DNA of 64,000 nt. Origin: Caulobacter rhizosphaerae. GTDB taxonomy: Bacteria > Pseudomonadota > Alphaproteobacteria > Caulobacterales > Caulobacteraceae. How positions within the stretch are numbered: the first letter of the stretch is position 1; each line of letters starts with the position of its first letter. The translations under genes and the position numbers were made by a program. The stretch spans positions 992,001 to 1,056,000 of the forward strand of contig NZ_CP048815.1 of assembly GCF_010977555.1 (NCBI RefSeq), given 5' to 3'. The notes beneath the pieces were generated by a model. That model was not told where the DNA came from. It did not search any database and saw only the letters and a program-made list of their open reading frames with translations. This document shows positions 1 through 19,362 of this stretch, piece by piece.

Positions 1-710
1 GGCGCCAGGCGCTCCAGAGCGTCGCGGGCCAGGGCCTTGCGATGGATCAGGTAGCGGCGGACGATCAGGTCGCGGGCCGGATGGGCTTCCAGCCAGCCCT
101 CGCCGCGCCGCATCAGCTTCTCCACCTCGTCGTCGCCGACCCAGTAGTGCTTGTCGTCGTCCAGCACCGGGATCAGCACATAGAGGTGGTTCAGCAGGTC
201 GCGCAGGCGCGCGGTCGCCGACAGGCGCAGGGTCACGTAGCGCGACGGCGCGCCGTCCGCGCCGGCCACGCCCTCGACGTCGACGGTCCAGCCCAGCGGC
301 TCGAACAGCTGGCGCACCAGGGCCTCGCCGCCCCGCGCGGGCAGGGGCGTGACGACGGCCTCCAGGGGGATCGCGCTCTGCGCCAGTTCTGGCCGCTCGC
401 GCGAGGTCCCGGTCATGGCCGTGCGCAGGGCGCGGGCCAGGGCCACGGACAGGAAGGACGAGGCGGCGTAGGGGCGGTCGTTGACGTACTGGTCCAGCAG
501 GCCGTCGCCCCGGCCCTTGCCACGCACCAGGCCGACGGGATCGACGTCCAGCATCAGGGCCGCCTCGCAGCGATCCTCGCCGACCTGCGGATAGAAGACG
601 TGCGCCTTGCCGAACGGCAGCTCGGTCTCGTGCACGCGGCCGGGGTGCTTGTGCAGCAGGAAGCCCAGGTCGGTGGCGGGGCGATGGGTGGTGGCGATCG
701 ACAGGAACAT
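1..710 (-). CDS. hen1: 3'-terminal RNA ribose 2'-O-methyltransferase Hen1, N-terminal part (runs off the left edge)
   Basis: The ATG at 710 opens a frame that stays open to base 1, giving about 236 residues. The N-terminus carries TTHRPATDLGFLLHKHPGR, then GKAHVFYP and LDVDPVGLVRG, which are hallmarks of the N-terminal domain of bacterial Hen1. In that family this domain stimulates the partner RNA ligase Pnkp, and a C-terminal manganese-dependent methyltransferase domain 2'-O-methylates the 3' end of cleaved RNA so that repaired tRNA resists a second cut. The methyltransferase domain would lie outside the window, so activity cannot be judged. The gene is third in a minus-strand row after a TROVE gene and a small HTH gene, 21 bases after the latter, with no good ribosome binding site visible. 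A pnkp gene is expected further left but is not seen here. The family call is firm; the operon role is inference. Confidence 0.9.
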   Translation of the reverse strand, partial: MFLSIATTHRPATDLGFLLHKHPGRVHETELPFGKAHVFYPQVGEDRCEAALMLDVDPVGLVRGKGRGDGLLDQYVNDRPYAASSFLSVALARALRTAMTGTSRERPELAQSAIPLEAVVTPLPARGGEALVRQLFEPLGWTVDVEGVAGADGAPSRYVTLRLSATARLRDLLNHLYVLIPVLDDDKHYWVGDDEVEKLMRRGEGWLEAHPARDLIVRRYLIHRKALARDALERLA

Positions 711-731
711 CGGAGGCTTTCGGACGGGCGT

Positions 732-977
732 TCAGTCTTCAGAAGGGGAGTCTTCGGCCGGGTCGAGCTGGTCGTACTCGCCCGGCCGAAGACCGGTCAG
801 TCGGTAGATGAGCAGCCAGGCCTCGACGGCGGCGGCGACCGGACCGGGAACCGGCAAGCCCGCGAACCAGCGGGATACCGAGGACCGGTCCACCCCCAGG
901 GTTTCGGCGAGCCGGGACATCCAGCCCCGCTCGCCGAAAAGGGTGATCGCCGCCTGCCGCAAGGCCTCCGGGCTCAT
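732..977 (-). CDS. Small helix-turn-helix protein (81 aa)
   Basis: The frame encodes 81 residues. Residues 22-36 (LAETLGVDRSSVSRWF) form a helix-turn-helix of the XRE/Cro kind, followed by a hydrophobic helix (AVEAWLLIYRLTG) and an acidic tail ending DPAEDSPSED. The ATG lies one base after the TAG of the TROVE gene and the stop is 21 bases before the hen1 start, so the three genes are almost certainly co-transcribed. No other domain is visible. Its position suggests a local regulator of the Y RNA/TROVE/hen1 unit, for example one binding the GTTGC-N5-GCAAC palindromes upstream, but nothing in the sequence proves this. It could also be an RNA-binding accessory. Coding is supported by tight packing and GC-rich third positions. 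Confidence 0.75.
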   Translation of the reverse strand: MSPEALRQAAITLFGERGWMSRLAETLGVDRSSVSRWFAGLPVPGPVAAAVEAWLLIYRLTGLRPGEYDQLDPAEDSPSED

Positions 978-978
978 C

Positions 979-2295
979 CTAGCGAACCTCCGCCGTCAGG
1001 CGTTCGTGCTCGCGGATGAAGCCCAGGACGGCCTCGGAGAAGCCGTCAACATGGACCCAGTTCGGGCCGTAGCCGACGCCGTTCCGGGCGCTGGCGACGT
1101 TGACCATATAGGCCTTGGCCGCCTTCGGGGCCGGAACCCGGTCGTGGGACTGCTCGTCGGTCACCACGATCAGCCGGTCGTGGGCCAGGGCGTTGATCTT
1201 TTCGATCGCCTGGCCCAGTTCCGTGCCGCCGTGGGGCTGCGAGCGGATCACCACGTCGACCCCCGCCATGCCCCGACGGGGCGGGACTTCCTTCACCGCG
1301 TTGGAGAAGGTGAAGACCCGCACCTCGCCCGGCACGATCGAGGCCAGGGTGGCGGCCGCGTCCATCCGGGTCAGGTCCGACCGGGCCGACAGACGGGCGT
1401 CCATCGAGCCGGAGACGTCGACCAGAATGATCGTCCGCCCATCGAAGACCGCGCCTTCCAGCACGGTCTCGGCCAGCGCCTGGTCGAGCCAGGGCTCGAA
1501 CCGCGGCGCGGCCCGGGCGGCCGCCACGTAGCGGAAGGGCAGGACCCGTTCCGCGCCGCGCCGCGCCAGGATGGCGTCCTTGACCAGGGCCTCGTCGACG
1601 CCGGCCTGATCCATGTTCCGGAGGTTCCGGAGCAAGGCCAGGTAGCCCAGCTTCTTCTCGGCCAGCAGGCGCTGGAAGGTTTCGCGCTTGTCCGCGCCGC
1701 CCGAGAGCGCGACCTCCCAGGTGTCCGGCGCCGTCAGCGTGCGGTCGGCGACCTGCTTCCACAGGGCCGCCTGCGCCTCGTCCTTCGGCTTGGCGTGGAC
1801 CAGGAACAGCACGTCGCGCAGCTTCACCGGACCCTCGCGGTCGTACTTGGCCAGCTGATAGGCGTCGAACTTGCCGAAGGCGGCCGCGAGGCCCTTCTTC
1901 GTCTGCTTGCTCAGCGGCCGCCGGCCATGGCGCCAGTAGAGCGCCAGGAACTCGGTGATTTCGTCGGCGCGCTGGATCACCCGCTCGATCGTCTGGGCGA
2001 CCAGCGGCGTGCCCGATCCCGTGCGGGTCAGGGCGCAGAGCAGCATCAGCGGCGCATGGCGCAGCTTGAAGGTCTCGCGCGCCTCGATCGCGAGATCGGC
2101 CGTGACCTGCGGCGCGACCGCGCTCGCCAGGGCGGCGATGCGGTCGGCGATGGCCAGGCCGTCCTCGTAGAACTCGTCCTCCCACAGGAGGCACGAGAGC
2201 ACCGACCGGCGCAGTTGTTGTTCAGCCGTGAGGACCACGGCGGGGGCGCCCTCGAAGGTGACGTCGGGGCGCTTGGCGAAGATGTTGAAGCGCAT
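979..2295 (-). CDS. TROVE domain protein, bacterial Ro60 orthologue (Rsr-like)
   Basis: The 438-residue protein has the two-part build of Ro60/Rsr. Residues about 1-270 form the TROVE HEAT-repeat ring, with KLRHAPLMLLCALTR at 78-92, then PLSKQTKKGLAAAFGKF, KYDREGPVKLRDVLFLVHA and LLRNLRNM. Residues about 283-438 form a von Willebrand A domain with the MIDAS motif D293-x-S295-x-S297 and a later GGTELGQAI and VVTDEQ. Ro proteins bind misfolded RNA ends in the ring and Y RNA on its outer face, and in bacteria they can tether the exonuclease PNPase. The start ATG follows AGGAGAAG at a normal distance. Length is a little short of the usual 510-540 residues. The gene follows Y-like RNA genes on the same strand and precedes the HTH gene and hen1, so a Ro-Y RNA particle linked to RNA repair is likely. 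Confidence 0.95.
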   Translation of the reverse strand: MRFNIFAKRPDVTFEGAPAVVLTAEQQLRRSVLSCLLWEDEFYEDGLAIADRIAALASAVAPQVTADLAIEARETFKLRHAPLMLLCALTRTGSGTPLVAQTIERVIQRADEITEFLALYWRHGRRPLSKQTKKGLAAAFGKFDAYQLAKYDREGPVKLRDVLFLVHAKPKDEAQAALWKQVADRTLTAPDTWEVALSGGADKRETFQRLLAEKKLGYLALLRNLRNMDQAGVDEALVKDAILARRGAERVLPFRYVAAARAAPRFEPWLDQALAETVLEGAVFDGRTIILVDVSGSMDARLSARSDLTRMDAAATLASIVPGEVRVFTFSNAVKEVPPRRGMAGVDVVIRSQPHGGTELGQAIEKINALAHDRLIVVTDEQSHDRVPAPKAAKAYMVNVASARNGVGYGPNWVHVDGFSEAVLGFIREHERLTAEVR

Positions 2296-2360
2296 GGCGC
2301 TCTTCTCCTGACGTCGCTTGGGGTTTCCAGGCCGGTCGGGAGACGGACGAGACGTCCAGG

Positions 2361-2387
2361 CCCCGACGGCCGAAACCGGCGTCGGGG
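2361..2387 (-). other. Leader hairpin in the TROVE mRNA
   Basis: CCCCGACG and CGTCGGGG form an 8-bp perfect stem around an 11-base loop that can pair further. It lies about 65 bases before the TROVE start inside a leader of about 200 bases. No U-run follows, so it is not a plain terminator. Confidence 0.4.
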
Positions 2388-2391
2388 AGGT

Positions 2392-2442
2392 CTAGGGCGT
2401 GCAGCCCTCCGGACGTTCAAACTTCAGATTGCTCGAAGTCAT
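2392..2442 (-). other. Possible 16-codon leader ORF upstream of TROVE
   Basis: An ATG at 2442 opens a 16-codon frame (begins MTSSNLKFERPEG) that ends at TAG just before the leader hairpin. The ribosome binding site is weak. It sits within the predicted 5' leader of the TROVE mRNA and may be chance. Confidence 0.25.
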
Positions 2443-2504
2443 GGTCTCGTTCGTCGCCTGATCGGGTCCTCGCGACGCCGGCGGCGTCTCTTCGAAGACC
2501 AGGG

Positions 2505-2535
2505 TTCTTTAGTCCAGCTTGTTGCGTAATGCAAC
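2505..2535 (-). promoter_or_regulatory. Palindrome plus -10-like box, promoter P1 of the TROVE-HTH-hen1 mRNA
   Basis: Read on the minus strand, GTTGC-N5-GCAAC (2535-2521) is followed 9-10 bases later by GGACTAAAG. The palindrome is the core of a longer perfect inverted repeat, 14 bp per arm with a 5-base loop (2512-2544). The same arrangement recurs at 3000-2971 and 3180-3152 before the two Y-like RNAs. The aligned trio reads GTTGCA-NNA-(C/T)GCAAC-N3-CTGG-N2-TA. The TTGCA of the left arm can serve as a -35 box. The promoter role is inferred from position and recurrence. Confidence 0.6.
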
Positions 2536-2548
2536 AAGCTGGACGAAG

Positions 2549-2690
2549 AAAAATGTCGACGGGGAATACTCGGCTCGGGAGGGCGCTTCCGCCGGGCGCT
2601 CGCGACGCCCGGACCCGGTTGGACTTTCGTCCCGGCCGCCCTTTGGTTGGTGCGATGAACCCGGTTGGCCATCACCGCCGTCGACGATCT
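2549..2690 (-). ncRNA. Third structured RNA candidate (RNA C) with a Y-like terminal stem
   Basis: On the minus strand, GTCGACGG (2685-2678) pairs perfectly with CCGTCGAC (2562-2555), and a U-run (ATTTTTC) follows, which suits a factor-independent 3' end. Next to this stem the 5' side reads CGGTGAT and the 3' side GAGTATTCC, echoing CGGCGCA and GAAnnTTCC of RNAs A and B. Inside are a GGAC-GAAA-GTCC hairpin and a 7-bp CCGGGCG/CGCCCGG hairpin, but no T-loop or D-arm. There is no palindrome promoter directly before it, so it may be co-transcribed with RNA B. It could be a Y RNA with another effector domain, or the 3' part of a longer B-C transcript. Confidence 0.45.
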
Positions 2691-2703
2691 TTCCGGGGAA
2701 CAG

Positions 2704-2742
2704 GCGCACCGCGGGCCTCCCTCTTGCGAGGGAACGGTGCGC
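2704..2742 (-). other. Strong hairpin between RNA B and RNA C
   Basis: GCGCACCG pairs with CGGTGCGC (8 bp), and inside it TCCCTC pairs with GAGGGA around a GCAA tetraloop. It lies in the stretch 2691-2804, which has no open reading frame that looks coding. It may mark another RNA domain or a processing site. Confidence 0.4.
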
Positions 2743-2804
2743 AGCTTTCGCCCGCCTGCCGTCACCCGAAGAATCCGCTGTGCTACGCCGCCGGATCGAT
2801 TGGC

Positions 2805-2965
2805 TTCCCGAGGGGGAAAATTCGGAAACGGCGTGGCGCTCTACCAGACTGAGCTACGGGCGACTTGCGTCATCCGGAGGGATTCGAACCCTCGACCTCC
2901 CGCGTGACAGGCGAAGTAACCGTCTCCTGCGCCGCCCTCGGTTCCCGCCGCCGAAGCGACGAGAG
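2805..2965 (-). ncRNA. Y RNA-like small RNA B with permuted tRNA mimic
   Basis: Read on the minus strand. The ends pair through CCGAGGG (2941-2935) and CCCTCGG (2814-2808). After an internal loop (CGGCGCA on the 5' side, GAATTTTC on the 3' side) a second 8-bp helix GGAGACGG/CCGTTTCC follows. The apical part has a tRNA-like T arm (GAGGG-TTCGAAT-CCCTC, 2893-2877), a 7-position acceptor-like stem (CGGATGA with TCGCCCG, one mismatch and one wobble) extended by a C-G pair and capped by a GCAA tetraloop, then a D arm (GCTC-AGTCTGGTA-GAGC, 2854-2838). The order T arm, acceptor, D arm is the reverse of a real tRNA, so this is a circular permutation opened at the anticodon stem. Bacterial YrlA RNAs are known tRNA mimics bound by Ro. 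The anticodon-stem remnant is weaker here than in RNA A. Ends are approximate. Confidence 0.8.
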
Positions 2966-3000
2966 GCGTTCGTATAGTCAAGTCTGTTGCGTCATGCAAC
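2966..3000 (-). promoter_or_regulatory. Palindrome plus -10 box, promoter P2 of RNA B
   Basis: GTTGC-N5-GCAAC (3000-2986) is followed by CTATAC (2977-2972), 16 bases after TTGCAT, which gives a plausible -35/-10 pair. Transcription would begin near 2965, just before the base-paired 5' end of RNA B. The palindrome overlaps the -35 region, which suits a repressor or activator site. Confidence 0.6.
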
Positions 3001-3147
3001 GAAAAACGGTGACGATGGGGAATGTTCGGAAGCGGCGTTCCTGATGCTCTACCCACTGAGCTATGGCGAGAAGCCCCGCCAGCGGGACTCGAACCCGCGA
3101 CCGTCAGATTATCGATGAAACCGCTTCCTGCGCCGCCATCGTCCCGC
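3001..3147 (-). ncRNA. Y RNA-like small RNA A with near-perfect permuted tRNA mimic
   Basis: Read on the minus strand. The outer stem is GACGATGG (3143-3136) with CCATCGTC (3018-3011); after an internal loop (CGGCGCA / GAACATTC) comes GGAAGCGG with CCGCTTCC. The apical part contains every tRNA helix in permuted order: anticodon-stem 3' strand TCTGA, 5-base variable loop, T arm GCGGG-TTCGAGT-CCCGC (3098-3082), acceptor 3' strand TGGCGGG, a GCTT loop, acceptor 5' strand CTCGCCA (3070-3064), TA, D arm GCTC-AGTGGGTA-GAGC (3061-3046), one A, then TCAGG, which pairs with TCTGA. A U-run (GTTTTTC, 3007-3001) marks the likely 3' end. This fits the bacterial Y RNA (YrlA) plan of a Ro-binding stem plus tRNA-mimicking domain. 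It is not a functional tRNA because the acceptor end is closed. Confidence 0.85.
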
Positions 3148-3180
3148 GGTCGGATATACCAGAATGTTGCATTGTGCAAC
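3148..3180 (-). promoter_or_regulatory. Palindrome plus -10 box, promoter P3 of RNA A
   Basis: GTTGC-N5-GCAAC (3180-3166) is followed by TATATC (3158-3153), about 15 bases after TTGCAC. It begins 12 bases after the stop of the upstream MucR-like gene, so RNA A has its own promoter. It is the third copy of the motif. Confidence 0.6.
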
Positions 3181-3191
3181 ATCAGGCGGGT

Positions 3192-3581
3192 CTAGGCGCC
3201 CAATCGACCGCGGCGCGCGGCTTGCGAGCGAAGATCCGAGAAGCTGCGGGCCACCAGCGGATAGTCGTCGGGCAATCCCCATTTGGCGCGATACTGGGCC
3301 TCGGTCAGGCCTTGCTGCTTGAGATGGCGGCGCAGCGAGCGATAGCGGCGGCCGTTCTCGAAACTGACGATGGCGTCGGGGGTGACGCTGGCGGCGATGG
3401 CTTCGGGGCTGGGCGGCCTGATCGGCTCCGTCCTCGGCAAGGGCGCCAGCACCGCCTCGAGCGCGGCATAGGTGCGGGCGGTGAGCCCGGGCAGGTCGTC
3501 GGGCGGGACGAGGTTGCGGCTGAGATAAGCGCAGAGGACCCGCGCGGCCATCTCGGCGGCGCGCTCCTGGGCCTTGGTCAT
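3192..3581 (-). CDS. MucR/Ros-family transcriptional regulator lacking the zinc-finger cysteines
   Basis: The 129-residue protein ends with the Ros/MucR signature: GRRYRSLRRHLKQQGLTEAQYRAKWGLP at about 88-115, then DDYPLVARSFSDLRSQAARRGRLG. In most MucR/Ros proteins the segment before the RRHL helix has Cys-x2-Cys for zinc. Here it reads IVSFENGRRYRS with no cysteine, so this is a zinc-independent variant, a kind known among rhizobial homologues. The family are H-NS-like or gene-specific regulators of envelope, motility and cell-cycle genes in alphaproteobacteria. The start ATG follows GGAG at 9 bases. It lies between sulP and RNA A, all on the minus strand, and a hairpin separates it from sulP. 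No evidence ties it to the RNA unit downstream. Confidence 0.8.
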   Translation of the reverse strand: MTKAQERAAEMAARVLCAYLSRNLVPPDDLPGLTARTYAALEAVLAPLPRTEPIRPPSPEAIAASVTPDAIVSFENGRRYRSLRRHLKQQGLTEAQYRAKWGLPDDYPLVARSFSDLRSQAARRGRLGA

Positions 3582-9156: not shown

Positions 9157-9399
9157 GTCACGCGGCGGGACGATTGTTCCGTGGCCTGAATAATCCATAT
9201 GCTCGGGGTACTTAGGCGCGGCGACCGCGCGAACAAGATCGGTGTCGAGGTTTTTCGGTCCAGGCTCGAACGCAAAAGCCGGAACGCGCCGAGACTTTCC
9301 CGGCCAGATCGAGCCCTCGCGCGCCGCGGGGGAGGGGAACACGCGAGGGCGGGCCGCCTGGGCCTTTCCGGGTCCTGAACGGCGGTGCGGCCGCTAGGC

Positions 9400-9642
9400 C
9401 TAGCTGGCCCGGCAGCTGTCGGACGCCGCGCCGTCCGGCTTGGCGTCGTCGGACTTGCGGGGCTCTCCCGCCTTGGGCGCGGCGCAGTCGGAGGGCGAGC
9501 GGAGCTCCGCGGCCCGCTTCTTCTGGAGAGCTTTCCTGGCCACCTCCTCGGTGAAGGTCAGGCCGGTGCCGGCGGGACCGGCGAAGGCGGGGGAGGCCGC
9601 CAGGCAGACGGCGGCGAGGCCGATGGACGCGAGAACTTTCAT
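9400..9642 (-). CDS. Small exported protein of unknown function
   Basis: Eighty residues beginning MKVLASIGLAAVCLAASPAFAG, a clear Sec signal peptide with an AFA-G cleavage site. The mature part is charged and has two cysteines (SPSDCAAP and SDSCRAS) that could form a disulfide. I recognise no family. It follows the 215-residue exported protein gene on the same strand after 41 bases, so the two may be co-transcribed. Confidence 0.65.
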   Translation of the reverse strand: MKVLASIGLAAVCLAASPAFAGPAGTGLTFTEEVARKALQKKRAAELRSPSDCAAPKAGEPRKSDDAKPDGAASDSCRAS

Positions 9643-9683
9643 GCGGGTGACAAACTCCGGGACATCAGGGGTGGAAGGGTGGT

Positions 9684-10331
9684 TCAGCCGTCCGCCGCGG
9701 TGTTGGCTTCGGCCTGGACGGCGGGCAGGGTGCGGCGGTAGCCGTCGACGGCCTTGAGCAGGCCTTCGATCTCGGCATGGGTGATGGCGGTGCGATGCTC
9801 GTCGCCGCCGTCGGACTTGAACTTGAAGCGCCAGGCGCCCGGCTGGGCGGCGGCGCGGCGCAGCTCGCTTTCGGAGATCTCGAAGGCGACCTCCTCGCGG
9901 CACAGCTCCGGCGCCTCGAACACGAAGCAGTAGCCGGCGTTGTCCTTGATCCTGGTCACCGGCGCGCGGACCGGCCACTGGCCGGTTTCATAGGCCACTT
10001 CGCCATAGCCCCTGACCGGACCCATGTAGGTGAGGACCTGGCGGACCTCGAAGCGCGTGGCGCCCGATCGCTTGTCGACGACGGCGCGCAGGTGGTTGTC
10101 GTTGCTGGGCGCCCGGAACAGGCCCTTGCCGGTCTGGAAGCCGCGTTCGGAGCTGATCACGGTCTCGATGTCCAGCGGATCGTCCACGACCTGGGCGCGG
10201 GCGTGGAAGTGGTCGGCGCCCAGGGCGACCTGCCGGGCCGGCAGGGGCGTGGTCTCGGCGCTCGCCGCGCCGCCGGCGGCCAGGCCGGCGATAGCGCTCA
10301 GAGCCAGCAGGGCGGTACGGGTCTTGGTCAT
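9684..10331 (-). CDS. Exported protein of unknown function (215 aa)
   Basis: The ATG at 10331 is preceded by GAACGAGG at a good distance. Residues 1-26 (MTKTRTALLALSAIAGLAAGGAASAE) form a signal peptide with an ASA-E cleavage site. The mature part has a few motifs such as SSERGFQTGKG, EVRQVLTYMGPVRGYG and CFVFEAPELC, with two cysteines close enough to bond. The sequence resembles uncharacterised periplasmic proteins; I can assign no function. A TTTGTCACAAA palindrome shared with the carbonic anhydrase gene lies 86 bases upstream. Confidence 0.75.
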   Translation of the reverse strand: MTKTRTALLALSAIAGLAAGGAASAETTPLPARQVALGADHFHARAQVVDDPLDIETVISSERGFQTGKGLFRAPSNDNHLRAVVDKRSGATRFEVRQVLTYMGPVRGYGEVAYETGQWPVRAPVTRIKDNAGYCFVFEAPELCREEVAFEISESELRRAAAQPGAWRFKFKSDGGDEHRTAITHAEIEGLLKAVDGYRRTLPAVQAEANTAADG

Positions 10332-10416
10332 CCTCGTTCTCCCGAACAGGCCGCTCGATGGCGAGCCGCCTTCTGGGGTCGAGAGTGGCGAGGCCGCCTT
10401 TCGGCTCTGCATCGCG

Positions 10417-10432
10417 TTTGTGACAAAGGATG
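10417..10432 (-). promoter_or_regulatory. Second TTTGTCACAAA palindrome
   Basis: Sixteen bases identical to 6027-6042 (CATCCTTTGTCACAAA on the minus strand), followed in both cases by a TGCA at similar distance. It lies upstream of the exported-protein gene at 10331. Confidence 0.4.
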
Positions 10433-10486
10433 ACAGCCGCAACGCCCGGCTGCGGCCGGACCGAGAGGACCGCCGGCGCCGGGTCG

Positions 10487-12817
10487 CTAGCCCGCCATGA
10501 CCCGCGCCTCGTAGAACACGGCCGCCTTTTCGCCCGCCTCGAGCCGCACCCGCGCCGGGCCGGCGCCGGGCGGCAGCGGCAGGTCCACGGCGAAGAAGCC
10601 GTCGCGCTTGTCCGCCGGGGTCTCGACGACGCCGGCGGGGGCGCCGTCGACCAGGACCTTGACCCCCTGGCCCGCGTCCTGCCCCCAGTAGACCAGCTGC
10701 AGGCTCATGCGCCCGGGGCGGCGGTTCAGGGTCATCTCCAGCCAACCGCCGGGATTGAGCTTGCGACCGCTGCGGCCGTTCAACTGGATGATCTCGCCGT
10801 TGGCGGCGCTCACCCCGTGGTCGACCTCCGGCTGCTGTTCGCCCAGATAGACCGTGTCGACGGTGCGGCCCACGGCCTCGATGCGGGCCTGTTCGGCGGC
10901 CAGGAAGCCCGGTCCCTCCGCCGCCCAGCGGGCCTTGGTGAAGACCGGGGCGTAGACGGCCGTGCGGCGCGCGTACTGGGCGTAGAACGGGCTGAAGGTC
11001 GCCGTGCCGCCCGTGGCCAGGTCGGCGACATAGGCGTGCGGCGCCGGTCCGGCCTTGCGCAGCAGCGTCGCCGGAGGCCCGTCGCCCAGCAGGGCGGGGG
11101 CGGCTCGCTCGAAGGGCCGTTCGGCCGGGCCCAGGTCGGCGGCCAGCACCAGCGGACCGCTGACGAAGGCCACCAGGTTGGGGTCGTCCGGCGTCGCCTC
11201 CGCCCGCAGGGCCATCGGCAGCACCAGTTCGACCCGGTCGCCGGCTTTCCAGCGGCGCTTGAGGCGGGCGTAGCCGTCACTTCCGCGCCGTCCCATCGGC
11301 GTCCCATTGACCTTGACCACCGGGGCCGCGCACCAGCCCGGCAGGCGCACGGCGATCTCGCGCTCGCCCGCCGGGGCCCGCTCGACGTTCAGCCGCACCA
11401 GCCCCTCGGCCGGATAGCGGGTGTCCAGGTCGATGGCGAATTCCCCGTCCGGCAAGTCCAGGCGCGAAGGAACGAAGAGGTTGAGATAGAGGGTGTCGCC
11501 GCCCCGCCACCAGATGGAATCGGCGTGCTTGGCGTGGCTCTCCATGCCCGAGCCGACGCAGCACCAGAAGCTGTCCTCGCGCGTGGAGTAGCTGCGCCGC
11601 CCTCCCGCCGCCATCGGCATGAAATAGACGAACATGCCGTCGCTCGGCCGCTGGTGGGCCATGATGTGGTTCAGCTGGGTCCGCTCGTAATAGTCGAACA
11701 GCGACCCCTGCGGCGCCCAGCTCCACAGGCGGCGGGTCAGCTTCAGCATGTTGTAGCTGTTGCAGGCCTCGCAGGTGGTTTCGGCCATGTGGCGGGCGAT
11801 CTCGTTCGGCTTGCCGAAATGCTCGCGGTCGGAATTGCCGCCGATGACGTAGCTGTGGTTCTGGGTGACCACCTGGTGGAAGAACCGCGCGGCCCGGGCC
11901 TCGGCCGGATCGCCGCCCACTTCGTACAGTCGCGCCAGGCCGATGACCTTGGGGATCTGGGTGTTGGCGTGCAGGCCGGCCAGTTCGTCGCGACCCTCGG
12001 CGATGGGGTCGAGCACCGCCCTGTGGCGCAGCCGGCGCGCGACCTTCAGCCAGCGCTCGTCGCCGGTCAGGGCGTAGGTCTCGGCATAGGCCTCGTTGAT
12101 CCCGCCGTGCTCGGCGACCAGGATCTGCTGCACCTGCTCGTCGCTCAGGCCTTCGATGATGGTGGCGAAATAGCCGGCCAGGCCCACGGCGACGTCCAGG
12201 GCCTTGGGCGTGTCGGCCAGGCGGTGGGCGTCCAGCAGGCCGGCGTGCACCTTGTGCCAGGTGTAGATCGGCACCCAGCCGTCATTGAGGCTGAAGCGCG
12301 ACGAGCGGATGTCGCCCCGGCGGAGTTCCTCGAACACCTGCTTGCCGCCGGCCGAGTCGGCCTGGCCCCAGCGGGTGGTGCCAGCCGCGTAGCCGTCGCC
12401 GTGGGCGGCCTGCACGCGGGCCAGTTCGGCGACGATATAGGTCAGGCGGTCCTTCAGCTCCGGGTCGCCCGTGCCGGCCACCTGCAGGGCGCAGGCGGTC
12501 ATGTAGTGGCCCAGGGTGTGGCCGGCGATGCTCATGGCCTCCCAGCCGCCATAGACCGGGGCCTTGACCGGCAGGCCGGCGCCCTGGTGGAAGTTGTGCA
12601 GCAGCCGGTCGGCCGACAGCGAGACCAGATAGGCGCGGTTGGCGGCCTGGGCCTGCTGGAAGATCGAAGGCTTCAGCGCCACGTGACGGGCCGGCGCCGG
12701 CTCGGCGGCCACGCGGCCGGCCGTCGCGACCGCCAGGGCGGGCGAGGCTGCTCCCGCGAAGGCCAGGGCGCTGGAGGCCAGCAGAAAGGCGCGCCGGTTC
12801 GGCCGATCAAGATCCAT
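10487..12817 (-). CDS. GH127 beta-L-arabinofuranosidase-type glycoside hydrolase, Tat-exported
   Basis: The 776-residue protein belongs to the DUF1680/GH127 group. Characteristic residues are visible: Glu350 and Cys352 in TCEACNSYNML, and Cys419-Cys420 in FWCCVGSGMESH. In the Bifidobacterium enzyme the matching Glu and three Cys bind zinc and one Cys is the nucleophile. The N-terminus has twin arginines (RPNRRAFLLASSALAFAG) and an ALA-type cleavage region, so it should be exported folded to the periplasm. It would remove L-arabinofuranose from plant-derived oligosaccharides. It is monocistronic; a TTGTCCGACAA palindrome lies about 120 bases upstream of the start. Confidence 0.9.
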   Translation of the reverse strand: MDLDRPNRRAFLLASSALAFAGAASPALAVATAGRVAAEPAPARHVALKPSIFQQAQAANRAYLVSLSADRLLHNFHQGAGLPVKAPVYGGWEAMSIAGHTLGHYMTACALQVAGTGDPELKDRLTYIVAELARVQAAHGDGYAAGTTRWGQADSAGGKQVFEELRRGDIRSSRFSLNDGWVPIYTWHKVHAGLLDAHRLADTPKALDVAVGLAGYFATIIEGLSDEQVQQILVAEHGGINEAYAETYALTGDERWLKVARRLRHRAVLDPIAEGRDELAGLHANTQIPKVIGLARLYEVGGDPAEARAARFFHQVVTQNHSYVIGGNSDREHFGKPNEIARHMAETTCEACNSYNMLKLTRRLWSWAPQGSLFDYYERTQLNHIMAHQRPSDGMFVYFMPMAAGGRRSYSTREDSFWCCVGSGMESHAKHADSIWWRGGDTLYLNLFVPSRLDLPDGEFAIDLDTRYPAEGLVRLNVERAPAGEREIAVRLPGWCAAPVVKVNGTPMGRRGSDGYARLKRRWKAGDRVELVLPMALRAEATPDDPNLVAFVSGPLVLAADLGPAERPFERAAPALLGDGPPATLLRKAGPAPHAYVADLATGGTATFSPFYAQYARRTAVYAPVFTKARWAAEGPGFLAAEQARIEAVGRTVDTVYLGEQQPEVDHGVSAANGEIIQLNGRSGRKLNPGGWLEMTLNRRPGRMSLQLVYWGQDAGQGVKVLVDGAPAGVVETPADKRDGFFAVDLPLPPGAGPARVRLEAGEKAAVFYEARVMAG

Positions 12818-16596: not shown

Positions 16597-19362
<2,766 letters not shown>

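Follow-up and report, generated by a model that had tools for sequence, protein, structure and literature searches.

The window, a stretch of 64,000 nucleotides of Caulobacter rhizosphaerae (NZ_CP048815.1, positions 992,001 to 1,056,000), carries at its left end, on the minus strand, an array of four predicted Y modules (A, B, C1, and C2, in this order) followed by rsr, a small HTH gene, hen1, and, past the window edge, an ORF of 168 aa and pnkp (table 1). We interpret this locus as a Ro-RNP cassette, probably mobile and under tight regulation, that would handle damaged structured RNA and that is coupled in this genome to end-healing repair by Pnkp–Hen1, a reading to which we give a probability of about 0.55. 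The original prediction had described a jointly transcribed system of RNA quality control and repair; its gene composition and its expectation of Pnkp to the left held, the single joint transcript probably did not, and the main feature, the tandem Y array, had been missed. Judging from sequence, there are probably three transcription units instead (A; B-C1-C2; rsr-HTH-hen1-orf-pnkp), each with a promoter-like copy of one common operator. This apparently shared control site points to a way in which the surveillance of RNA could be linked to its repair, and we infer that the locus would serve the recognition and repair of damaged RNA.

Table 1. Features of the Ro–Y locus in the window (positions are those of the window).
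Feature	Position	Strand	Basis
Y module A, permuted tRNA-like	3011..3143	-	covariance model 131 bits; YrlA 42.8 bits
Y module B, permuted tRNA-like	2807..2942	-	covariance model 118 bits; YrlA 36.1 bits
Y module C1, non-tRNA apical domain	2689..2798	-	module finder score 50; covariance model 25 bits
Y module C2, non-tRNA apical domain with conserved GGCGGAAGCGCC	2555..2685	-	module finder score 41; covariance model 24.8 bits
Putative A promoter	3151..3180	-	palindrome GTTGCACAATGCAAC holds -35, 17-nt spacer, TATCCG
Putative B-C1-C2 promoter	2971..3000	-	palindrome GTTGCATGACGCAAC holds -35, 17-nt spacer, TATACG
Putative rsr promoter	2506..2535	-	palindrome GTTGCATTACGCAAC holds -35, 17-nt spacer, TAAAGA
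T-run past A outer stem, possible terminator	3002..3006	-	sequence
T-run past C2 outer stem, possible terminator of B-C1-C2	2549..2553	-	sequence
rsr leader element, possible degenerate Y-like module	2332..2465	-	fold z -4.46; alignment
rsr, TROVE-vWA (Ro60-like), 438 aa	979..2295	-	Pfam, PDB profile match, AlphaFold and Foldseek
81-aa Cro/Xre-like HTH gene, candidate regulator of the locus	732..977	-	Pfam P22_Cro, E 3.1e-4
hen1, N-terminal 236 codons, runs off the window leftward	3..710	-	Pfam Hen1_L, NCBIfam TIGR04074

The two Y RNA-like genes of the original prediction correspond to A and B, in which a long basal stem formed by the 5′ and 3′ ends carries a permuted tRNA-like domain (T arm, acceptor-like hairpin, and D arm), as in the YrlA architecture. 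The third RNA candidate is the one aligned to Deinococcus_Y_RNA (see C2 below); the modules C1 and C2, called by the module finder, are both without a tRNA-like part. The modules have a common basal architecture, consisting of an outer stem, a conserved internal loop (YGGYGYA / NNNNNTTCC), an inner stem, and UUHHUUCG, whereas their apical domains differ. No Rfam family matched at its gathering score within the window: A and B fell short of the curated YrlA cut-off (RF02553; 69 bits), and C2 was aligned over its whole length to Deinococcus_Y_RNA (RF01053) with 27 bits, its cut-off being 80. A covariance model trained on 23 tRNA-like modules, A and B being part of the training set and C1 and C2 lying outside it, gave five matches in the window, namely the four modules (E-values of 3.7e-4 for C1 and 4.1e-4 for C2) and an unrelated match at 18803-18879 (17.6 bits, E 0.023). 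In a search of the whole genome, C1 was no longer significant (E 0.035) and was outscored by tRNA genes (34.5 and 33.6 bits), and C2 was missing from the matches listed. Because genome-wide covariance scores do not single out C1 and C2, these modules rest on the finder, on their position in the array, and on their counterparts in relatives, which is weaker evidence than that for A and B. Single-sequence folding gave z-scores of -2.87 (A), -1.28 (B), -1.40 (C1), and -0.41 (C2), only A being under -2; the minimum-energy fold of A shows the module structure, that of C1 differs from the module fold, and in the consensus fold of the C2 class, the outer stem and the apical helices have support and the inner stem has none. 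Among the 33 consensus pairs in the alignment of the 23 tRNA-like modules, 21 carry compensatory changes.

Comparable arrays were found in bacterial relatives and in many phages. At least one module lies upstream of rsr in 77 of 80 bacterial relatives and at least two in 67, with a maximum of seven. In 18 upstream regions, one being that of the window and 17 belonging to other loci of this family, the finder identified 66 modules, versus 4 in ten dinucleotide-shuffled sets together. The 80 bacterial loci contain 253 upstream sense modules, as against one antisense, two downstream, and three in one shuffle; the corresponding numbers for the best 80 of the 253 stretches of viral contigs that encode an Rsr relative are 166, 0, 5, and 0. 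Covariation was assessed on 170 anchor pairs picked by sequence motifs alone, which makes the test non-circular, and outer-stem pairing reached 0.913 versus 0.601 with shuffled partners. An rsr match is present in 19 of the 199 genomes searched (including one weak partial match and one gene fragment), and full-length covariance-model matches occur in 17 of these versus 2 of the 180 others; a distant Rsr is present in one of the two. The tandem arrays add Y RNAs, none of which attained an Rfam Y-RNA cut-off in the ten loci tested. Named phages with rsr and modules include Gurke and CcrColossus, and two phage records label modules partly as tRNAs. CcrColossus, a phage of Caulobacter crescentus, has an array of the same type, which makes the questions raised here testable in an easy host.

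The abundance of viral loci and of their upstream modules, the patchy presence of rsr among the genomes searched, and the flanking genes of the window locus, which are not common to the 20 other stretches compared, would all suit a phage-derived weapon or counter-weapon, whose tRNA-like modules would be decoys or sponges for anticodon nucleases or host tRNA enzymes and whose ligases would repair the same tRNAs. We consider this unlikely. The T-arm signature is absent from 98 of 251 modules, so that a tRNA decoy cannot account for all of them; PADLOC assigned no defence family to rsr, the HTH gene, the 168-aa ORF, or pnkp, and its weak partial mad2 match to Hen1 covers the methyltransferase part only; and YrlA fragments were undetected in Salmonella when tRNAs were cut, according to the portion of PMC7790460 compared here.

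The division into three units is suggested by a 15-bp palindrome containing the -35 box. The 5.96-Mb genome has three copies of it, each in a putative promoter of this locus, where the promoter-like sites show the geometry TTGCAY-17-TAnnnn. Over 1.06 Mb of named loci, each of the 26 strict palindromes on the rsr strand precedes rsr by no more than 1.2 kb, and TA is found at the 17-nt spacing in 34 of 36 operator sites. A simple promoter/terminator scan found nothing and listed neither T-run. The perfect palindrome xxTGCAnnnTGCAxx is present in 17 of 34 HTH-bearing loci, the other 17 being devoid of it, versus 3 of 123 HTH-less loci; this co-occurrence among related loci makes the HTH protein a candidate ligand of the operator. 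The rsr leader of the window folds as a near-continuous hairpin without the canonical internal loop, and the finder made no call on it; in 12 of 19 relatives with the operator, a module is located after the operator and before the start codon of rsr, and the distant Rsr also has a leader module, as judged by eye and from its fold.

Such leader modules raise the question of whether the array is mainly a cis-acting leader, in which tandem Rsr-binding elements would tune rsr expression, and not a source of trans-acting Y RNAs. In 61 of 77 loci, no more than 250 nt separate the last module from the start codon, and TTTT is rare after modules (10 of 174 non-last and 14 of 77 last ones), as this explanation would have it. 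We nevertheless find it very improbable: in the window, A and B-C1-C2 each have their own putative operator-promoter, T-runs follow A and C2 ahead of the rsr promoter, and a Listeria phage shows three highly transcribed regions at most 2 kb from an Rsr-like gene (PMC12282133), whose identity as Y modules is only suggested in the portion of that source compared.

The protein-coding genes named in the original prediction were all recovered. Rsr matches Pfam TROVE with 41.2 bits (cut-off 23), over an alignment confined to residues 187-245, and VWA_2 with 29 bits; no NCBIfam match was obtained. Its DVSGSM motif, which we take to be the metal-site motif, is intact. Its sequence gave a profile match to PDB 9l5y/9kop (E 4e-37), and its AlphaFold model (pLDDT 85.2) gave 13 Foldseek matches in the PDB at E <= 0.001 (TMq 0.61-0.70), all described as Ro60, Rsr, or TROVE; the predicted structure thus has the Ro60 fold, a helical-repeat ring with a vWA domain. 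The HTH protein scores 20.9 bits with P22_Cro, below the cut-off of 30.2, and 20 of the 80 bacterial loci have a homologue beside rsr; 15 of the 80 viral loci also contain one. The first 236 aa of Hen1 score 352 bits with Hen1_L and 359 bits with TIGR04074 (cut-off 340); the complete gene (461 aa, at 9325-10710 of the extended window locus, L009) encodes Hen1_L and Methyltransf_25 domains, both over the Pfam cut-off. To the left of base 1, the rest of hen1, the 168-aa ORF, and the expected pnkp follow on the same strand. The 854-aa Pnkp contains AAA_33, Metallophos, and PNKP_ligase domains, all over cut-off, corresponding to kinase, phosphatase, and ligase, and PDB matches tie Pnkp and Hen1 to bacterial Pnkp–Hen1 repair of the Clostridium thermocellum type.

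Hen1, put forward originally as the repair partner, is thus present together with Pnkp, and the pair is an exchangeable partner: of the 19 genomes in which rsr was matched, 8 have Hen1–Pnkp adjoining it. RtcB is found in 29 of 80 loci of named bacterial relatives, and is absent from 18 kb of L009 (tblastn, E <= 1e-6). On the Rsr tree, the Hen1–Pnkp label requires three changes, at least two by starred branches; RtcB-bearing near relatives of Hen1–Pnkp groups are present, and the immediate neighbours of the Caulobacteraceae Hen1–Pnkp groups carry neither ligase. That one Rsr family stands beside either RtcB or Hen1–Pnkp independently supports a link of the Ro–Y particle with RNA repair, and this exchange, read from gene neighbourhoods, supports a coupling of Rsr–Y to RNA ligation. 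It also argues that the ligation partnership matters, which bears on the standing question of why bacterial Ro60 adjoins RNA-repair genes (Hughes et al., in the portion compared). On the other hand, 44 of the 80 bacterial loci showed neither ligase, although the downstream sequence exceeded 3 kb in 37 of these, and neither was seen in 79 of the 80 viral loci, whose flanks were no longer than 5 kb; the core function of the Rsr–Y unit is therefore not ligation. These loci would be expected if Rsr–Y were a RYPER-like machine of decay or stabilization, in which the Y RNA tethers Rsr to PNPase and the ligases are merely co-induced neighbours that leave Rsr-bound RNA untouched, RYPER being the bacterial function given in the portions compared of two reviews (PMC4726728, PMC8394870). 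We regard this explanation as rather doubtful, because a single Rsr family repeatedly has one or the other of two unrelated ligase systems next to it and, with three label changes on the tree, a neutral neighbourhood alone is hard to sustain.

In the cassette that we favour, the HTH protein would bind the palindrome and keep the three units off until a stress signal. Each module would bind one Rsr through its basal helix, in the manner of known Y RNAs, and the transcript of B-C1-C2 would either hold several Rsr side by side or be cleaved to single Y RNAs. The tRNA-like apical domains may imitate the elbow of a tRNA and attract PNPase or enzymes that bind tRNA, or may serve as tRNA decoys. Damaged RNAs would be held by Rsr, and their broken ends would be healed and sealed by Pnkp and 2′-O-methylated by Hen1, while surplus Rsr could limit its own synthesis via the Y-like element in the rsr leader. 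A more tentative extension, for which we would not claim much likelihood, makes the array a multivalent scaffold RNA with Rsr rings on adjacent modules. The apical domains (tRNA mimic, C1, C2, and minimal loops) would then present PNPase, Pnkp–Hen1, or RtcB, so that a damaged RNA bound by one Rsr could be handed to decay or repair; through the leader Y module, the particle would gauge and restrict its own supply of Rsr, and the HTH/palindrome switch together with ligase exchange would make a transferable cassette common to bacteria and phages.

Among known systems, Pnkp–Hen1 of the C. thermocellum type shares with the window locus the Pnkp kinase, metallophosphatase, and PNKP_ligase, and the Hen1_L and methyltransferase parts of Hen1. 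We know of no Ro or Y component in the classical description of that system, whereas here Pnkp–Hen1 is the tail of the putative rsr operon. The RNA repair operon of Salmonella, rsr-yrlB-yrlA-rtcB-rtcA (PMC7790460, PMC9879122), likewise brings together Rsr, a YrlA-type RNA with a tRNA-like domain, and an RNA ligase, with a stress-type repair logic; as far as the portions compared go, it differs by having two Y RNAs downstream of rsr instead of four tandem modules upstream, RtcBA instead of Pnkp–Hen1, and RtcR/sigma-54 control instead of a small HTH gene and a palindrome containing a sigma-70-like -35 box. RYPER of Deinococcus radiodurans (Rsr, Y RNA, and PNPase) also combines a Ro60-fold protein with a Y RNA, and our Rsr model matches its Rsr (2nvo); the portions of its descriptions compared here (PMC4726728, PMC8394870) name neither a ligase partner nor an array. 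The regions of Listeria phage CKA15 mentioned above, suggested to be Y RNAs, resemble the window in that an rsr-like gene is preceded on its own strand by several presumed noncoding RNAs (PMC12282133, in the portion compared). Ro60-Y-RtcB operons are already known, and a link between TROVE, a tRNA-like RNA, and repair has been stated in print, in a text whose compared portion mentions no tandem arrays, leader module, HTH/operator, or ligase exchange. Set against the literature that was compared in part, what looks new is the tandem arrangement of Y modules with several kinds of domain, the presence of a module in the rsr leader, the HTH/palindrome switch, and the replacement of one ligase by another.

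The window spans bases 992001–1056000 of contig 1, one of the two that make up the 5.96-Mb genome, and contains a minus-strand row in which four Y RNA modules (A, B, C1, and C2) precede rsr, a TROVE-vWA (Ro60-like) gene, a small HTH gene, and the RNA-repair gene hen1 (see table). The original prediction that a Pnkp partner would be encoded to the left of base 1 was borne out, as pnkp was found there on the same strand, beyond hen1 and an additional ORF. From rsr to pnkp, genes overlap or are separated by at most 21 nt, a spacing that is operon-like. Pnkp comprises kinase, metallophosphatase, and ligase domains, and Hen1 comprises Hen1_L and methyltransferase domains; the methyltransferase part of Hen1 gave the sole match in a search of a defence library, a weak and partial one to mad2. 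The additional ORF matches no Pfam family, no function name appears among the 120 listed of its 197 homologues, and it is not counted as a core component because hen1 and pnkp lie only 9–42 nt apart in three congeners. In Asticcacaulis, an ankyrin-repeat protein gene sits between hen1 and pnkp (fetched locus L081:9944–11071), and a related ORF is found in locus L090.

Coordinates of the features of the row (window numbering, except L009, the fetched stretch that includes the part left of base 1)
Feature	Position	Strand
Y module A	3143-3011	minus
Y module B	2942-2807	minus
Y module C1	2798-2689	minus
Y module C2	2685-2555	minus
rsr	2295-979	minus
HTH gene, 81 aa	977-732	minus
hen1, 461 aa	from 710 leftwards, past base 1	minus
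168-aa ORF	L009:8822-9325, left of base 1, between hen1 and pnkp	minus
pnkp, 854 aa	left of base 1, after 168-aa ORF	minus

For comparison, 20 stretches of 15–17 kb each were fetched around rsr or hen1 of related genomes. The genes flanking the row in the window (MucR-like, sulfate permease, carbonic anhydrase, and helicase) had no match in any of them. Module A is immediately preceded by a Ros/MucR-family regulator gene (3192–3581) in the same orientation; given this lack of matches, this gene is probably not a member of the cassette.

The TROVE match of Rsr is above the Pfam cut-off and is limited to residues 187–245, and the fold was therefore tested. A profile built from 13 Rsr relatives matched the solved TROVE proteins 9l5y and 9kop (E-value 4e-37), and the AlphaFold model (29 sequences, pLDDT 85.2) gave 13 Foldseek matches with E-values of at most 0.001, all to Ro60, Rsr, or TROVE structures, that of Deinococcus radiodurans Rsr among them. 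Judged by Rsr, the closest named relatives of the window are Caulobacter.

Modules A and B score 42.8 and 36.1 bits, respectively, with the Rfam YrlA model, both below its curated cut-off. The third RNA candidate of the original prediction is read as C1 plus C2; its assignment to the Deinococcus Y RNA was dropped, C2 scoring 27 bits with that Rfam model against a curated cut-off of 80. In the fetched stretches, one unit recurs in tandem: it runs from an outer stem through YGGYGYA, an inner stem, and UUHHUUCG to an apical domain that varies, and then back through the inner stem, NNNNNTTCC, and the outer stem. In 18 regions upstream of rsr (G136, a genome with an rsr fragment, being excluded, and G100, with a weak partial rsr match, unfetched), a strict stem-and-motif finder identified 41 units, versus 0–6 in each of 20 shuffled sets. 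A motif-plus-stem scorer, trained on words taken from the very loci it scored, called 66 modules, versus four in ten shuffled sets combined; 65 of these scored at least 37, and one scored 28. Among the best 80 of 160 named bacterial loci encoding an Rsr relative, the regions of up to 2.5 kb upstream of rsr contained 253 modules in sense and one in antisense orientation, versus two in those of up to 2.5 kb downstream and three in one shuffle of the upstream set. At least one module was present in 77 loci and at least two in 67 (loci with zero to seven modules numbered 3, 10, 13, 17, 26, 7, 3, and 1, respectively), with a median gap of 15 nt between neighbours. According to their record titles, these loci belong to Alphaproteobacteria, Acidobacteria, Betaproteobacteria, sulfate reducers, and Clostridia. 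At a slightly higher threshold (251 modules), 111 modules carry both T- and D-arm signatures, 42 the T arm alone, and 98 neither.

To avoid circularity, we placed modules by sequence motifs alone, which gave 170 unambiguous pairs of halves in 68 of the 80 loci, ambiguous pairs being dropped. The six positions of the outer stem were paired at a frequency of 0.913, versus 0.601 with exchanged 3' halves (maximum of 200 shuffles, 0.637), and the inner stem at 0.812 versus 0.580. Within the same array, 5' halves paired with their own 3' half at 0.923 and with that of another module at 0.686. RNAalifold analysis of 23 tRNA-like modules recovered the outer and inner stems, the T arm, an acceptor-like hairpin, and the D arm, with changes on both sides in 21 of 33 pairs. 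The consensus of 12 C2-type modules, with such changes in 14 of 31 pairs, bears out the outer stem and the apical helices but has another hairpin where the inner stem would be. Folded as a single sequence, module A, one of five so treated, adopted the module fold (z = −2.87).

A covariance model built from the 23 tRNA-like modules, A and B included, detected C1 and C2, both absent from its training set, where the finder had placed them in the window. On the scale of the whole genome, C1 had an E-value of 0.035, C2 was unlisted, and tRNA genes scored above them; six matches outside the locus (19.5–34.5 bits) were rejected as Y RNAs since all overlap tRNA genes. In 17 distant loci chosen from the 160 fetched, the model gave 62 matches, every one on the sense strand and mostly within arrays; L091 and L195 also have some outside their arrays, in part overlying tRNA genes. 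L091 is a contig from a Gallionellaceae metagenome-assembled genome; besides rsr, the beginning of RtcB, and Y modules, it carries a tRNA cluster (L091:42–1895), and it may be a phage contig. Across ten loci (148 kb), tRNA was the sole Rfam family found at the cut-off, one such match falling inside the Y array of L140.

Of 199 genomes searched in the family of the window, 19 have an rsr match; full-length matches to the model were found in 17 of these versus 2 of the remaining 180. One of these two (G117) encodes a distant Rsr missed by the rsr search, and the other (G082) has a shortened array (L229:7671–7803), no rsr being found. The tally comprises 24 genomes, 19 with full-length and five with only partial matches; the partial matches, seven in all and one per genome (46.4–46.5 bits), cover model positions 21–113 only and, by analogy with the whole-genome matches above, look like tandem tRNA genes. 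A 44-bit full-length match lies 23 kb from rsr in G141. Other modules apart from rsr are an array with an operator on contig 24 of G119, whose rsr is located elsewhere (L231:4216–4470), and a damaged, A-like module at the start of contig 8 of G033 (L232:225–363).

The original prediction also had the whole row transcribed jointly. This is judged unlikely because A, B-C1-C2, and rsr each have their own putative operator-promoter. A search of the whole genome for the palindrome GTTGCAYNRYGCAAC gave four strand hits at three places, each a promoter-like site of this locus; its reversed control gave none. In 17 upstream regions (L062 being excluded), we counted 36 operator-like sites, with A or G permitted at the fifth base of TTGCA. 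TA lies exactly 23 bases past the first T in 34 of them, that is, TTGCAY, 17 nt, TAnnnn, a geometry from which it follows that the palindrome contains the −35 box. A consensus promoter and terminator scan detected nothing, and the putative promoters therefore rest on this conserved geometry. In 1.06 Mb of named loci, the rsr strand bears 26 strict palindromes, every one in the 1.2 kb preceding rsr. HTH homologues were found in 20 of the 80 bacterial loci, there beside rsr, and in 15 of 80 viral loci, and a perfect palindrome xxTGCAnnnTGCAxx lies upstream in 17 of 34 HTH-bearing versus 3 of 123 HTH-less loci, which are not phylogenetically independent. The three HTH-less loci are L082, whose contig ends right after rsr, and L088 and L175, which have the same palindrome and contigs of equal length. 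With more distant HTH proteins, the outer bases vary (AGTGCA, CGTGCA). We infer that the HTH protein binds the palindrome and acts as a repressor.

Nineteen named loci have an operator no more than 600 nt from rsr; in 12 of them, the stretch from that operator to the rsr start codon holds a finder-grade Y module, presumably as part of the rsr mRNA. In 13 leader elements analysed with RNAalifold, 7 of 14 pairs show changes on both sides. Among the seven loci without such a module are L069, L070, and L085, all closely related to the window. In the leader of the window itself, no module was called by the finder, and the sequence folds strongly into a near-continuous hairpin (z = −4.46). That the modules serve only as a cis leader is regarded as improbable. 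A distant Rsr of 548 aa from another genus of the family (L230:5351–7900) has a Ro60-type vWA, with 23% identity over part of that domain, and an HTH gene, 46% identical across 56 aa, overlaps its stop codon. Its locus has an operator-like TTAGTGCATTACGCACTAA, a leader element, and Y-like units with another core, the units having been recognised by eye and by two folds, not via the finder.

Repair partners beside rsr were searched by tblastn with known partners, so that others may be missed; this search superseded a greedy ORF calling downstream of rsr, which produced many spurious frames in GC-rich DNA. RtcB was detected in 29 of the 80 bacterial loci, 16 at 60% identity or more and 13 at 31–38%, one of the latter being confirmed as PF01139. 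Hen1 was found in eight loci, seven of them with Pnkp, the contig ending in the eighth. Both systems co-occur only in L070, where the RtcB match (31%) is 5.4 kb away. In the family, presence is patchy: 19 of the 199 genomes have an rsr match, 16 Hen1_L, and eight Hen1-Pnkp adjoining rsr. On a quick Rsr tree of 80 rows with SH-aLRT supports only (L096, L109, and L130 excluded for in-frame stops), the Hen1-Pnkp label requires three changes, at least two of them by starred branches. Within Caulobacteraceae, the immediate neighbours of the Hen1-Pnkp groups have neither ligase, and the near relatives Asticcacaulis and Phenylobacterium have RtcB. Neither ligase was detected in 37 bacterial loci with room downstream. 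A function of the particle in decay only is conceivable although doubtful.

Phages carry the same arrangement. Viral contigs yielded 253 stretches encoding an Rsr relative; the best 80 contained 166 upstream modules in sense and none in antisense orientation, five downstream, and none after shuffling. L177 and L182 have no upstream sequence and L208 has 35 nt, so that these three could not show any. Caulobacter phage CcrColossus (JX100810.1) has seven modules, all scoring at least 48, ahead of a "putative TROVE-like domain protein," and viral locus L191 also has seven. An annotated tRNA-Gln of CcrColossus (L233:1646–1713) overlies the 5' part of one module. An annotated tRNA-Ser of Brevundimonas phage Gurke (ON529850.1; L234:2266–2340) likewise lies on the 5' part of a module, uncalled by the finder, with a 104.9-bit model match at its start. 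ARAGORN called the Gurke tRNA-Ser a tRNA, not the CcrColossus tRNA-Gln. Y arrays may inflate the tRNA annotation of such phages. A conflict between phage and host over tRNAs seems unlikely as the explanation of the system.

The reading that we rank as most likely, with a probability of roughly 0.55, is that of a Ro-Y particle that would be induced by stress, would retain damaged structured RNA, and would be coupled to RNA end repair; it overlaps with the alternatives. In the published passages covered, we met no tandem multi-domain Y arrays, leader module, HTH/palindrome switch, or exchange between RtcB and Hen1-Pnkp, nor a TROVE-Hen1-Pnkp linkage; an earlier mention in print of the tandem arrays or of this linkage is possible. 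The same passages indicate that other elements were already known, namely, the association of Ro60, Y RNA, and RtcBA in Salmonella (PMC7790460, PMC9879122), Y RNAs as tRNA mimics (PMC8394870), a TROVE protein with a tRNA-like partner as an RNA-repair platform (PMC7824862), and, in a Listeria phage, presumed Y RNAs close to an Rsr gene (PMC12282133).
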